A stretch of 31,515 nt of DNA from a virus, in IMG/VR virus record IMGVR_UViG_3300021437_000064, positions 1 through 31,515 of that record; one strand, written 5' to 3'. Within the stretch, counting starts at the first letter, position 1. Every line of letters begins with the position of its first letter. Both the position numbers and the translations under genes were made by a program. The notes beneath the pieces are model-generated. The model had not been told where the DNA came from and made no database searches. It worked only from the letters and a program-made list of their open reading frames with translations. Below are positions 1,508-5,437 of the stretch, piece after piece.

Positions 1508-1995
1508 AGTTTCCCCCACCAAAGAACGGGGTTTGATATGCGCGAATTGCGTCTTACAGATCCCTTGCTTTGCAAGCACCAATCACGTCTAGACCATAGT
1601 GGCCCCCACTTATCACCATCCCAATATCTAAACCCGTAGTTTGGTATTTTTGAATCAGATTTGACTCTATAAGCACCTTTTTTCTTTGGACTACCTGCCA
1701 TCCAATCATTAATAGAGCCTTCAATTATCATGCCCAACTCGCAAGCAATGTAATGCTCAAGTTTCGCGCCCTTGCTTTTCTCCCATCCAGGTAGCAAGTG
1801 CAATACTTGGCAATCCATCAGCAAACGAATATCTTTGCGCAGATAAAAAGACCATTCTTGATTAGGTACTTCGTCATGTTCTGCAGGATTACAAACGTCA
1901 AATCCTTGTGATCTCAACTCCTTAGCTTTTTCTGCAAATACTGGAAAGTTAAGTTCAGAATAGCCAGTCATTGGCCCACTAATATAAATTCTCAT
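1504..1995 (-). CDS. DUF4406 (nucleoside deoxyribosyltransferase-like fold) protein
   Basis: 163 residues. The start MRIYISGPMTG, followed by NFPVFAEKAKELRSQGFDVCNPAE and later the DCQVLHLLPGWEKSKGA segment, is characteristic of DUF4406, a Rossmann-like family related to nucleoside 2-deoxyribosyltransferases. The family is common in phage early regions, and the biochemical role is not established. The DUF domain fills roughly residues 1-95. The remaining 65 residues (WDGDKWGPLWSRRDWC and after) look like a separate, aromatic-rich tail that I do not recognise. The gene overlaps both neighbours by four bases (ATGA), fixing it in the leftward operon. It is visibly more AT-rich than the nuclease gene upstream. 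Confidence 0.85.
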   Translation of the reverse strand: MRIYISGPMTGYSELNFPVFAEKAKELRSQGFDVCNPAEHDEVPNQEWSFYLRKDIRLLMDCQVLHLLPGWEKSKGAKLEHYIACELGMIIEGSINDWMAGSPKKKGAYRVKSDSKIPNYGFRYWDGDKWGPLWSRRDWCLQSKGSVRRNSRISNPVLWWGKL

Positions 1996-3026
1996 TCCAC
2001 AACCCTCCCGTTAAATTCACGCCGTAAATCATGCAACTGAGCCCAGCCGCCATCAGCGCACGCTGCGGCATTGGCTAGCAGCTCCTTGCTGCTGTAAACG
2101 CCTTCTCCTGCTTCGCCATTGGCAACATCTTGTCCATTCACCTCGTAGATGGCCACGAAGTCAATAGCGCTTTCTTTGCGCTTCCAAGGCACTAGATCAG
2201 GGTGAATAACATGGGCTTCACATCCGTCATGCTGTGCGTTTGTTGGGACAATATCATCCCACTTTGCACAATGCCAGGTGCTATCAGACAATGGGGTAGC
2301 GTTGGCGCAGGTACGGCAATTCACCTCTTTGACTATGTGTGTAGAGTGGCAAAACTCATGCGCTGCGCAAAACCGGCACTCGAACCAGCTAGGGTCTGTG
2401 CTTATTGGTGGTGGCATTCGGTCTGCAAGAGTGATGCGATGGCCACGGGCAACGTACTTCTCTGCAAATTCCTTGTCGTAGTGCACGCGCTCGGTATAAA
2501 TCTGGTCGTCGTCTTTGCACACAGCCAAGTACAGCGCCCGGTCAATGCCGGTGCCATGCATGTATAGCTGCATCTGCACGTAGTGCTCTTTCTTGGATGC
2601 CTGCACGCCCTTGGCCTGCACATCCTTGAAGGACTTTAGGCTGTGAGTCTTGAACTCTGCAATATGGCGTGCTTTTGGCGCTTCCGGGACACCCCGCTCA
2701 ATGATGCCGTCAATGCTTCCACTGACATGGGAGCCAAAGTCTACCCGGGCTTGCTTGCCATCAATGGTGCCAGTGATATGGATGCCAATCATGCGAAGGT
2801 CAGAAATGATCTGCGCCTCTTCATTATTTCCACGGCGGAACACTCGCAAGATGCGTCCGGAAAAGGTCTGCTTGATTGCCCAGCGGAATGACAACCACAG
2901 CCAACGGTCACAGGGGTGCCCTAGTGCAGAGCATCCCAGGTGCGCACGGCCTTTCCCCGATTCTTTGGCCTCATGCGCTTTGTCAATTATAGAAGCTATG
3001 GTATCCTCACGTTCGGGTATCTTCAT
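1992..3026 (-). CDS. PD-(D/E)XK nuclease, Cas4/RecB-like, with cysteine clusters
   Basis: 344 residues. The nuclease core shows SGSIDG with D106, AEFKTH with E124 and K126, and a QMQLYM segment at Q151, matching motifs of the RecB/Cas4 group of PD-(D/E)XK exonucleases. Cysteines C32 and C39 near the N-terminus together with C217, C220 and C226 could hold a Cas4/AddB-like iron-sulphur cluster; this is inferred from spacing. A second group (C237, C240, C253, C269) looks like a zinc ribbon. The likely role is resection of phage DNA ends, feeding the DUF669 ssDNA-binding protein and the Sak4-like annealing protein encoded in the same operon. The ribosome site GAGGAGAGGGC precedes the ATG. Alternative: a structure-specific endonuclease. 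Confidence 0.87.
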   Translation of the reverse strand: MKIPEREDTIASIIDKAHEAKESGKGRAHLGCSALGHPCDRWLWLSFRWAIKQTFSGRILRVFRRGNNEEAQIISDLRMIGIHITGTIDGKQARVDFGSHVSGSIDGIIERGVPEAPKARHIAEFKTHSLKSFKDVQAKGVQASKKEHYVQMQLYMHGTGIDRALYLAVCKDDDQIYTERVHYDKEFAEKYVARGHRITLADRMPPPISTDPSWFECRFCAAHEFCHSTHIVKEVNCRTCANATPLSDSTWHCAKWDDIVPTNAQHDGCEAHVIHPDLVPWKRKESAIDFVAIYEVNGQDVANGEAGEGVYSSKELLANAAACADGGWAQLHDLRREFNGRVVE

Positions 3027-3057
3027 TGCCCTCTCCTCGGTTATGAGTTGTTGATTT

Positions 3058-3088
3058 GCCCCAGTTCAAAAGACTGGGGCATTTTTTT
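3058..3088 (+). terminator. Stem-loop with T-run reading on + strand
   Basis: An 8-bp perfect stem (GCCCCAGT at 3058-3065, ACTGGGGC at 3073-3080) with a 7-base loop is followed by A and seven T on the plus strand (3082-3088). This has the shape of an intrinsic terminator for rightward transcripts. The flanking genes are both leftward, and in their direction no U-run follows the stem. It may therefore block antisense transcription or act as an RNA-processing or stability hairpin between the ssDNA-binding and nuclease genes. Confidence 0.6.
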
Positions 3089-3090
3089 GG

Positions 3091-3573
3091 CTACTTCTTA
3101 GCCCAAGGAGGTGCCGCCTTGGCGGGTGCTGCAGGTGCTGCGGCCTTAGTCTCCACGGCCATGGCGCGGCCAACGGTGAGCGACTTGAATCCCTTCACAT
3201 CATTACTGTCGCCGTATTGCTCAGACTTCACTATGGCCAGTTTCAGGCCCAGGCTTCCACCAATAAGCTGGTCTGTGTCAGTGACGCGAGCCAAGCCTAT
3301 CGCACGCATCAACTCTCCCAACTGCTGGCGTCCAATTTCCTCCGCCTTGGGGTTTTGGTTCTTGATATTCATGTTGCCAAACACCACACGACCCTGATGC
3401 GTAGGCCCGGTAATGTCGTAGCGAACGGCAATGTATTCGCCAGTCCCGGACTTGGTCTTTTTGATCTCAGCACCAGTAATGCTAGCGGTGTACCAGCCAT
3501 CGGGCAGTGGGTCAAAGTTGCGTTCAGACTTGGGAAGACTGTCAACGTCAAATGATTCAGTGAGAAAGGCCAT
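3091..3573 (-). CDS. Phage ssDNA-binding protein (DUF669-like)
   Basis: 160 residues. The segments LPDGWYTASITGAEIKKTKSG, YIAVRYDITGPTHQGRVVF, NQNPKAEEIGRQQLGELMRAIG and LIGGSLGLKLAI match the DUF669 family of phage proteins, which are OB-fold-like ssDNA-binding proteins that accompany phage recombination genes. The C-terminus is an Ala/Pro/Lys-rich flexible tail ending PPWAKK, which differs from the acidic tip of cellular SSB. Position between the nuclease and the Sak4-like protein supports a role as the SSB of the recombination module. The start has AAGGA upstream. The stop (TAG) directly abuts a strong stem-loop. Confidence 0.85.
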   Translation of the reverse strand: MAFLTESFDVDSLPKSERNFDPLPDGWYTASITGAEIKKTKSGTGEYIAVRYDITGPTHQGRVVFGNMNIKNQNPKAEEIGRQQLGELMRAIGLARVTDTDQLIGGSLGLKLAIVKSEQYGDSNDVKGFKSLTVGRAMAVETKAAAPAAPAKAAPPWAKK

Positions 3574-3578
3574 TTAAG

Positions 3579-3971
3579 TTAATCCTTGGAGGCTTTAGTG
3601 ATTGCGAAGGAAGGGCGGCTAGGTTTAGCCGTGATTGCACTGGCCAGAGGCCTAGTGATAGTTTCATCGGCATTCTTCCACGCCGATGCATTAATTTCAG
3701 GTTTCCAGCGAAACAATGATCCCAGATGCTCAGTAATCCCCGCTTCATTGGCAAGCTCTTGCAGCTTCTCGCTGTCAATGGTTCGGTTAATCCGGCCAGT
3801 GACCTTGATAACAAAGTCACCCTGCTTCTGAGTCATGGCACCATCCAACTGATCAGAAACTTTCAAAAGTCGCGTAAGCTGGTCCTCCAAGTCACGGCGG
3901 GATTCGATAGCGATGCGCTCAGCTTCTTTGGCATATTGCCAGGATAGGCATAAGGTTTCAAGTTCGATCAT
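3579..3971 (-). CDS. Uncharacterised phage protein of the recombination operon
   Basis: 130 residues, beginning MIELETLCLSWQYAKEAER. The N-terminal 50 residues are predicted helical and charged (KEAERIAIESRRDLEDQLTR), a possible coiled coil. The centre reads QGDFVIKVTGRINRTIDSEKL and the C-terminal 30 residues are Ala/Pro/Ser/Lys-rich and probably disordered. I recognise the type as a protein regularly found between DUF669 and Sak4/AAA genes in phages, but no function is known to me. A role in recombination is inferred only from position. It overlaps the upstream gene by four bases (ATGA) and lies five bases before the DUF669 start. Confidence 0.72.
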   Translation of the reverse strand: MIELETLCLSWQYAKEAERIAIESRRDLEDQLTRLLKVSDQLDGAMTQKQGDFVIKVTGRINRTIDSEKLQELANEAGITEHLGSLFRWKPEINASAWKNADETITRPLASAITAKPSRPSFAITKASKD

Positions 3972-4180
3972 TTGCGGGCCTCCAACATGGCGTCGGCAAT
4001 GTCATATGCCTCAATAGCTAATACACTAGGTAATTCACATTCATATCGTTCGATCAGTGCAGCAATAGCCTTGGCCGCAAAGTAGTCGCGCATCGTAAGC
4101 CCCTTCAGATGACTCATGCATTCCTGATAAAGCTGAGGGAATGCGTAATCAGGTGGTGTAACTTTCAGTTCTTCGTTCAT
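3968..4180 (-). CDS. Small uncharacterised phage protein
   Basis: 70 residues. It carries a GLTMRDYFAAKA segment (residues 27-38), a motif that recurs in small early proteins of many tailed phages, followed by a helical, Ala/Glu-rich C-terminus (AYDIADAMLEARK). No catalytic or metal-binding residues are evident and the function is unknown. It is coupled by ATGA overlaps on both sides, to the Sak4-like gene upstream and the 130-residue gene downstream, which strongly supports it being real despite its size. Confidence 0.72.
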   Translation of the reverse strand: MNEELKVTPPDYAFPQLYQECMSHLKGLTMRDYFAAKAIAALIERYECELPSVLAIEAYDIADAMLEARK

Positions 4181-4851
4181 GCCTTACCCCCAATCTTGGC
4201 AATAATCTCCCCAAGATCCGGCGCTTCCCATGCCCCGAGCTTTCCGCTACGGTCTTTAGCTAGCCACAGGCCATCTGTATCGCACATCAGGGCACGCTGG
4301 GTATCTCCCTCGGCATCCTTCTCCACGCGCAAGGCCAGCACTTCGTCGAAAAAGTAGGGCAAACTTTGGCCGGTCTTATTACCGGGCATGCTTGGTGCAT
4401 AAAGCACGCGCCCCATTTCGTCTTGCGTCTTCTCAAGCTTGGCGGACATGTAGATGTGCTTTCCAGGCAGATCACGGAAGGCGCGGATGATATCGGCCAT
4501 CTGCTCCTGCATTGCGCCATACGCTGCGCGAGGGTCTTTGTTGGCCTTCTTTTCGTAGTTCAGCACCACTTCTGCTATCTCGCTAATGCTGTCCAAAGCC
4601 ACCGACTGGAAGCGCTCACCATCCGGTCCTGTCACCCACTCATAAGCCTCTTTCAAATCGGCCATGCTGGTGATCTCGATGTAAGGCAGGTCAGCATCCT
4701 GGATAGAAAGCAGGCCTCCCTCAGCACTGAGCACTATAGGTGCAGGCAGCGTTTTGATAAGTGAAGTCTTACCAGCCCCGGCCTGCCCGTAGACAAGCAG
4801 CTTCACGCCATTGGCAGACATGCTGCCGGTTGATTTCAGATTGATTGCCAT
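4177..4851 (-). CDS. Sak4-like RecA-fold annealing ATPase (AAA_24)
   Basis: 224 residues. Walker A is YGQAGAGKTS (lysine at about residue 28) and Walker B is FQSVALDSIS (D87). The core YEKKANKDPRAAYGAMQEQM and the HIYMSAKLEK strand fit the phage nucleotide-binding AAA_24 family, which includes Sak4, a minimal RecA-like single-strand annealing protein. It would bind ssDNA with the DUF669 protein and promote annealing or repair of phage DNA ends made by the PD-(D/E)XK nuclease. This is known for characterised Sak4 members and inferred here. There is a fairly weak ribosome site (AAGGATTTTT) before the ATG, just after the Gly-X repeat gene. Confidence 0.85.
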   Translation of the reverse strand: MAINLKSTGSMSANGVKLLVYGQAGAGKTSLIKTLPAPIVLSAEGGLLSIQDADLPYIEITSMADLKEAYEWVTGPDGERFQSVALDSISEIAEVVLNYEKKANKDPRAAYGAMQEQMADIIRAFRDLPGKHIYMSAKLEKTQDEMGRVLYAPSMPGNKTGQSLPYFFDEVLALRVEKDAEGDTQRALMCDTDGLWLAKDRSGKLGAWEAPDLGEIIAKIGGKA

Positions 4852-4860
4852 AAAAATCCT

Positions 4861-5076
4861 TTAATTTGACCCTTCCCCGTCCCCAGACCCGTCCCCGTCC
4901 CCGTACCCAGCCCCGTCCCCAGACCCGTCCCCGGCCCCGTACCCAGAGCCAGACCCGGCCCCGTACCCGGACCCGTCCCCGTACCCGGACCCGGCCCCGT
5001 ACCCGGACCCGGCCCCGTACCCGTACCCGGCCCCGTACCCGGACCCGTCTATAAATGCTTTATTTTTTGAAGCCAT
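4861..5076 (-). CDS. Gly-X dipeptide repeat protein
   Basis: 71 residues: a 10-residue head (MASKNKAFID), then 30 uninterrupted Gly-X dipeptides with X drawn only from Ser, Tyr, Ala, Asp and Glu, ending in Asn. Tyr/Ala dominate the first half and Asp the second, giving an acidic C-terminal end. The frame is open because the DNA is a run of GGN-NNC-type hexanucleotides. It overlaps the DUF6948 gene by 17 bases and sits 9 bases before the Sak4-like gene, so it is positioned as a translated operon member. The function is unknown. Its low complexity and acidic, aromatic side chains suggest a disordered or condensate-forming peptide, or a DNA mimic; this is speculation. It might instead be a non-functional expanded tract. 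Confidence 0.6.
   Translation of the reverse strand: MASKNKAFIDGSGYGAGYGYGAGSGYGAGSGYGDGSGYGAGSGSGYGAGDGSGDGAGYGDGDGSGDGEGSN
4867..5046 (-). repeat. Hexanucleotide minisatellite (30 units) in coding DNA
   Basis: 180 bases made of thirty 6-base units. On the plus strand each is a variation on CCCGTA, CCCGGA, CCCGTC and CCCGGC, interspersed with CCCAGA-type units. The array is strikingly C-rich on one strand and lies wholly inside the Gly-X gene. Such arrays change length by replication slippage, and any change in multiples of six keeps the reading frame. Confidence 0.9.
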
Positions 5077-5437
5077 TTATTGAATCCTCAGCTGTTGAGC
5101 TGCATGGGATCAACTCACAAACACCTGTCAAATAAATCTCTGGGTTCACAACGTCAATCTTGCAACCAGACTGCACGCCAGTCTGAGCCACGCCGGACAG
5201 TGCAACTCCGTCTTTTGCTTTCCAAGACCACAATCGGCGAGAGTCTTTTAGGATTACGTTTTCGCCATCCACGCTAACCACCGTACCAGCATGTACACCA
5301 GCTGCATAGCAGCGTGCAATGACGTACTTACCTATGAATGGATGGGGTGTGTTGCATGGCGCAGGCTGTGCAATAGTTCCATTCACAAGAAAAGCAATCT
5401 CTCGGATTTGCTTCAAAGTCAGTTCTTCAATGTTCAT
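5060..5437 (-). CDS. DUF6948-like phage protein, first gene of the leftward operon
   Basis: 125 residues starting MNIEELTLKQIREIAFLVNG. A helical N-terminus is followed by a beta-rich domain: PFIGKYVIARCYAAGVHAGTVVSVDGENVILKDSRRLWSW begins at about residue 40, and KDGVALSGVAQTG follows. This matches the phage family known as DUF6948, of unknown function. The start at 5435-5437 has AAGGAAACACA upstream; an extended frame reaching 5524 would cross the promoter and lacks a ribosome site, so it was not used. It is the promoter-proximal gene of the leftward early operon, overlapping the Gly-X gene by 17 bases. Confidence 0.78.
   Translation of the reverse strand: MNIEELTLKQIREIAFLVNGTIAQPAPCNTPHPFIGKYVIARCYAAGVHAGTVVSVDGENVILKDSRRLWSWKAKDGVALSGVAQTGVQSGCKIDVVNPEIYLTGVCELIPCSSTAEDSINGFKK

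Follow-up and report, generated by a model that had tools for sequence, protein, structure and literature searches.

The whole stretch of DNA that was analysed, which we call the window, comprises 31,515 bases and is an IMG/VR virus record. Its Gly-X gene (Table 1) had been described from the sequence as a perfect run of Gly-X dipeptides that overlaps a neighbouring gene by 17 bases. Both points were confirmed: thirty six-base units encode 30 uninterrupted dipeptides after a 10-residue head, and the gene shares 17 nt with its upstream neighbour. The X residues are 9 Ser, 8 Tyr, 6 Asp, 6 Ala and 1 Glu, and the Gly codons are GGG in 29 units and GGC in one. TRF scored the array at 182 (period 18) and 178 (period 24), while the next-best repeat in the window scored 46. 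A 4-unit pattern search on this strand gave 21 matches and the reversed control gave none. The gradient toward Asp that had also been pointed out is significant in the window array for Asp/Glu (one-sided p = 0.004). It has no counterpart in relatives, where D/E residues sit at a mean relative position of 0.49, and thus seems to be a chance local outcome of turnover in the array.

The upstream neighbour, to which the preliminary description gave no name, is a member of DUF6948 (100.8 bits against a curated Pfam cut-off of 27) and is the important one. On the downstream side, the Shine-Dalgarno sequence of sak4 falls at the end of the Gly-X gene, and the Sak4 start lies 9 nt past the Gly-X stop codon. 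On the opposite side of the locus lie a gene for a small regulator (phrog_18104) and one for a primase/helicase, both transcribed divergently. The assignment as a phage gene in an early recombination cassette is supported; the cassette includes a Sak4-like gene, a single-strand binding protein (SSB) and a Cas4-type exonuclease.

Table 1 Features of the Gly-X locus in the window
Feature	Position	Strand	Description	Evidence
Cas4-type exonuclease	1992-3026	(-)	recombination cassette (1992..4180)	profile search
DUF669 / single-strand binding protein	3091-3573	(-)	recombination cassette	profile search
DUF7173	3579-3971	(-)	recombination cassette	profile search
Small phrog_2201-like gene	3968-4180	(-)	recombination cassette	profile search
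Sak4-like ssDNA annealing ATPase	4177..4851	(-)	next operon gene	phrog_124 E 4e-58
Gly-X gene	4861..5076	(-)	head MASKNKAFID, 30 Gly-X dipeptides, Asn, stop; 71 aa	ORF translation, homologues
Hexanucleotide array	4867..5046	(-)	thirty units, mostly GGG(T/G)(A/C)C	TRF rows 4868-5049, 4876-5048; pattern hits; codons
Overlap of DUF6948 3' end with Gly-X start	5060..5076	(-)	17 nt	
RBS-like GAGGA	5085..5089	(-)	inside DUF6948 gene, 8 nt before Gly-X ATG	
DUF6948 gene	5060..5437	(-)	125 aa, predicted Sm-like beta-barrel, constant Gly-X partner	PF22253 E 4.8e-29; AF2 pLDDT 89.9; Foldseek

When the Gly-X protein was compared with Pfam, PHROGs, NCBIfam and PADLOC, no family was matched, and the exact window head was found in none of the other IMG/VR contigs. 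Sak4 was rejected as the defining neighbour. Among 80 viral loci fetched by Sak4, many of them on short contigs, a Gly-X gene was present in only one, in which DUF6948 occurs as well. No Gly-X run was seen in the stretches fetched from the named phages with the most similar Sak4 (Alteromonas PB15 and XX1924, Idiomarinaceae 1N2-2, Salicola CGphi29 and MW202867). What stays constant beside Gly-X is DUF6948 or a putatively Sm-like relative.

When DUF6948 alone was used to fetch 80 loci, Gly-X was found directly downstream in all but four, in which the contigs end at that place. A second, alignment-based scan yielded 23 new contigs, and Gly-X was present in all 22 that could be evaluated. With the contigs repeated between the two scans removed, Gly-X is adjacent in 98/98 distinct evaluable IMG/VR contigs, about seven of which are near-duplicates of others. 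It was also present in 12/12 further distant members, most of which are 32-42 % identical to the window protein (63 % for L174). These members come from phages of Pectobacterium, Dickeya, Vibrio and Iodobacter, a Chlorobiaceae phage, spring-water phages, human gut phages, Monoglobus, a gonococcal prophage and a Steroidobacteraceae bin. In one of them (L183) Gly-X lies upstream of DUF6948, not downstream, and in another (L181) it is partly frame-shifted. The preliminary description had tied its coding interpretation to homologues at the same locus with lengths that do not break the frame, and this is what was found in related phages. The Gly-X gene shows the features by which the family was defined, namely alternate Gly, a short head in which an aromatic residue precedes the first Gly, and a DUF6948-like neighbour. 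Among 399 cellular genomes of one phylum, DUF6948 was found only in the seed itself, so it is mainly phage-borne.

In the reverse direction, a search with the Gly-X DNA pattern found DUF6948 adjacent by profile in 41 of the 65 loci with enough upstream sequence. Most of the pattern-found loci without DUF6948 have a member of one of two other small, unnamed families immediately upstream, usually overlapping: family B (signature ..VVLDRGFVYVG..NAKNIRxWGTTKGLGEL..) or family C (signature ..VVVVDRGWIFAGDV..AVHVFKWES..). Two loci are tail-type phage proteins (L289 and L326), and a few, e.g. L306 and L335, fit neither DUF6948 nor B/C. When families B and C were searched independently of Gly-X, it was adjacent in 77/77 and 79/79 evaluable loci, respectively, counts that include three loci with Gly-X upstream, 29 near-duplicate pairs and at least one locus (L396) in which the counted frame is a neighbouring frame of the array. 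Profile comparison related families B and C to each other with 98.9 % probability. Between DUF6948 and family B, hhalign gave a probability of 38.7 % (E-value 3e-4), and one family B member (L342) narrowly passes the DUF6948 cut-off (27.7 vs 27), which helps the modest sequence link between the two. Apart from this borderline DUF6948 match, neither B nor C matched a family in Pfam, PHROGs, NCBIfam or PADLOC. In L274, a protein with repeated LTSIPEGFNPTVGGxLxL units is located upstream of family B, about 1.2 to 0.5 kb upstream of Gly-X.

Gly-X is thus almost invariably encoded next to a small protein that belongs to DUF6948 or to one of two related families, and the two genes form a well-supported module. 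In the neighbour tallies, the commonest recognisable neighbours of the module are Sak4, SSB, Erf, RecE, Cas4 exonuclease, Gam, primases and helicases; its usual setting is a group of phage genes for recombination and replication.

Constraint on the array was assessed in 72 arrays with 2412 units, of which only 68 lack an in-phase Gly. Entropy per hexamer position was 0.08, 0.07 and 0.26 in the Gly codon and 0.96, 1.05 and 0.32 in the X codon. Ser, Tyr and Asp together occupy X in 91 % of the units, and Asp accounts for 22 % of X residues. The X codon sets vary between arrays (TCC/TAC/GAC or TCT/TAT/GAT) with an unchanged X alphabet. In the nearest relative (L094), Gly is encoded by GGC where the window has GGG and the protein pattern is the same, so that the bases have been exchanged under a protein pattern that was retained. 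The DUF6948/Gly-X overlap is 8, 11, 14 or 17 nt in 74/78 loci and equals 2 mod 3 in all 78 but one, which is non-overlapping; the three values of 20-23 are perhaps alignments running past the stop. A Shine-Dalgarno-like 4-mer core precedes the Gly-X start in 70/78 loci (16 % expected), and an aromatic residue stands before the first Gly in 73/78 heads. We also considered a +1 frameshift that would join DUF6948 to Gly-X. It was rejected, as the A-rich stretch of the window shows no conservation and Gly-X has a start of its own, preceded by a ribosome-binding site. Judged by comparison of these sequences, Gly-X shows the hallmarks of a gene that is translated and constrained at the level of its protein, and not those of a satellite.

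Array length changes between near-identical phages: L163 and L164 differ by 48 nt (8 units) and L162 and L165 by 36 nt (6 units). Both differences are multiples of six, which supports the earlier statement that length can change without loss of the frame. The array may also, as had been suggested, serve to tune some function through its variable length. The arrays of three gonococcal prophages of one genome and of one in another strain are also slightly different and in frame. Such fast shifts in length, together with a codon make-up that differs between relatives, would be expected if the 3' ends of DUF6948 genes were a hot spot for neutral or selfish minisatellites with no function. However, this explanation is contradicted by a linkage of near 100 % over very divergent phages and three protein families, by the rarity of units without in-phase Gly, and by an X alphabet that stays the same despite differing codons, and we give it hardly any credence.

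The preliminary description had also suggested an unusual DNA structure next to the recombination genes. The window array, a run of GGG-N3 units, is indeed a classic G-quadruplex motif and lies immediately ahead of sak4 on the mRNA-like strand. The motif is private to the window, since it occurs in 0/77 relatives, in which the Gly codons are GGC, GGT or GGA, and a conserved G-quadruplex regulatory element is not supported. In a wider form of this idea, the array would act as DNA or RNA (G-quadruplex, recombination hot spot or translational spacer before sak4) and the reading frame would be incidental. One contig (L014) that is 99.9 % identical to the window ends exactly at the array, which would speak for this idea. 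However, positions 1 and 2 of the Gly codon are near-invariant whereas position 3 drifts, the head, the start codon and the ribosome-binding site are conserved, and the next gene varies between loci. With the motif missing from the relatives as well, the idea is largely refuted and we consider it very improbable.

In a single metagenomic case (L280, 4911-5620), the Gly-X tract is in frame with DUF6948 and the two make one 219-residue protein, with a predicted Sm-like core and a Gly-X tail. Downstream of the fusion, part of the DUF6948 3' end is duplicated, and a second Gly-X tract with its own ATG follows. In gut phages and Monoglobus (L180 3276-3791, L182 2270-2830, L184 2770-3528), the Gly-X tract lies within a larger protein, and thus a role as a tail may not be universal. 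These three share a C-terminal domain (WHHxLTGSC...GGDVI) without a Pfam match above cut-off.

Duplicated copies were also observed. In L298, five tandem Gly-X genes were counted at 1680-2968 (DUF6948 at about 683-956); they have a common head (MGLKAFLKFG) and a common tail (EPNLTSAGATVVEE), and their arrays differ. Two copies each are found in L342, L343, L306 and L287. In L114, which is near-identical to L113, the Gly-X array (about 2885-3160) runs into the sequence of the next gene, by either a deletion or a misassembly caused by the repeat.

AlphaFold (AF2) models of DUF6948 and family B had pLDDT values of 89.9 and 84.7, respectively, and an identical order of strands and helices. When they were compared with the PDB using Foldseek, all top-50 hits of DUF6948 were Sm/LSm-type (best-hit probability 1.00; best E-value 8.6e-3, none below 1e-3; TM-scores over the query about 0.4). 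In the case of family B, nearly all top hits were Sm/LSm (best E-value 6.9e-4) and included 3by7, a metagenomic Sm-like protein. On these models, DUF6948 and family B are predicted to fold like Sm/LSm/Hfq proteins. A PDB sequence search with either protein gave no hits. The five-strand barrel of Sm-like proteins is present in the predicted structure of DUF6948, whereas the Pfam LSM, Hfq and Sm profiles gave no match to it at E-values up to 10; we therefore call DUF6948 and B Sm-like in predicted fold and not members of Sm/LSm. The likeness to known Sm/LSm/SmAP proteins, including 3by7, lies in the predicted five-strand barrel with the same strand order. DUF6948 differs from them by a helix between strands 3 and 4, an N-terminal helix and a linker, by the lack of an Sm profile match, and in that its ring is a presumed one. 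The Sm2 Arg-Gly motif is not conserved either: it is absent as such from the DUF6948 alignment, with LTG or LEA in its place, and canonical uridine binding is thus doubtful.

Despite a mostly basic head, the Gly-X proteins have a strongly acidic pI of about 4.1, and the DUF6948 protein beside them is near-neutral. We consider it fairly probable that Gly-X is a disordered low-complexity partner of the phage Sm-like protein (DUF6948) and that the pair is one functional module. As to its activity, we infer that the Sm-like protein would form a ring binding RNA or single-stranded DNA. The Gly-X chain, with its short, mostly basic, aromatic-bearing head and long acidic Ser/Tyr/Asp tract, would bind this ring or its neighbours. 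It may act in trans as the disordered Gly-rich or acidic C-terminal tail of Hfq acts in cis, i.e. by competing with nucleic acid for the ring, and its many Tyr contacts could gather rings and nucleic acid in a condensate where phage DNA is replicating. As each unit has six bases, the length of the tail can drift by slippage with the frame kept. As a more tentative proposal, to which we would give somewhat less than an even chance, many unrelated tailed phages may use a two-component nucleoprotein organiser, made of an Sm-like ring and a separate, slippage-tunable Gly-X polymer, which would condense on phage nucleic acid during recombination and replication.

Hfq is the best-supported analogy for the proposed action of Gly-X. 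Its acidic disordered C-terminal domain competes with nucleic acid for the Sm core and regulates it (PMC5606850), in Acinetobacter its function depends on GGFGGQ repeats (PMC11617691), and Hfq forms droplets with polyphosphate and DNA (PMC10954037). The Hfq proteins of E. coli and Acinetobacter resemble the phage pair in having an Sm-type core with a low-complexity Gly-rich acidic tail, the repeat number of which matters in Hfq. They differ in that the Hfq tail is in cis, whereas here the tail would be a separate overlapping phage gene of pure Gly-X, fused to the core only in L280. Low-complexity domains of the FUS/hnRNPA1 type have Tyr at regular intervals on a Gly/Ser background, and chains of this composition are known to phase-separate. 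Gly-X is like them in this composition, and differs in having Gly at every second residue and Asp for Arg, and in being short and viral.

Strict Gly-X alternation is also the pattern of silk fibroin. Gly-X might accordingly be a sticky structural or adhesive peptide, forming silk-like sheets or a glycine-rich sandwich as in some phage adhesins, in or on the virion or the cell surface, and the two tail-type proteins among the pattern-found loci would agree with this. However, the genes are mostly in recombination and replication cassettes beside the Sm-like protein and not among structural genes, the share of Asp at X is unfavourable for tight silk-like sheets, and the heads have no obvious signal peptide by eye. 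We regard an adhesive role as quite improbable.

An unlikely reading, if not so remote, is that Gly-X and DUF6948 work as a counter-defence pair or in the manner of a toxin and its antitoxin. One of the two would then neutralise or regulate its partner, with the Sm-like fold as a mere scaffold. The genes are small, overlapping and probably translationally coupled, they recur in very different phages and prophages, and Gly-X is present in tandem copies in L298, L342 and L343. However, a core phage role fits better with the near-absolute linkage to three Sm-like or related families and with the recombination/replication operons, and none of Gly-X, DUF6948, B and C has a toxin or defence match in Pfam, PHROGs, NCBIfam or PADLOC.

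DUF6948 (Pfam PF22253) is filed as a domain of unknown function, to which a Gly-X partner and a predicted Sm-like fold are added here. The openly accessible literature that was searched makes no mention of DUF6948 and contains nothing on the Gly-X/DUF6948 pair; searches on Gly-X phage proteins, on phage Sm-like or Hfq-like proteins and on gonococcal prophage repeats returned nothing on the module. Sm-type cores with Gly-rich tails are already known. Of the widespread phage two-gene module of Gly-X and a predicted Sm-like protein we found no description.

A curious repeat thus leads to a widespread unnamed phage gene pair and to a testable prediction of viral Sm-like proteins with a Gly/Ser/Tyr/Asp partner. 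As the number of units varies between near-identical phages, the pair offers a minimal natural system in which the length and the Tyr/Asp content of a low-complexity chain can be related to nucleoprotein assembly. It also exposes a blind spot: the window Gly-X matches no family, such genes may go unannotated and contigs break at them. In Iodobacter phage phiPLPE, for example, the Gly-X gene beside phiPLPE_84 (NC_011142, 46100-46265) is unannotated. Two PLSDB entries (NZ_CP119142.1 and NZ_CP119140.1) are 2.17-Mb Neisseria gonorrhoeae chromosomes filed as plasmids; each has three DUF6948 places, and Gly-X is present at all four of those that were read through.
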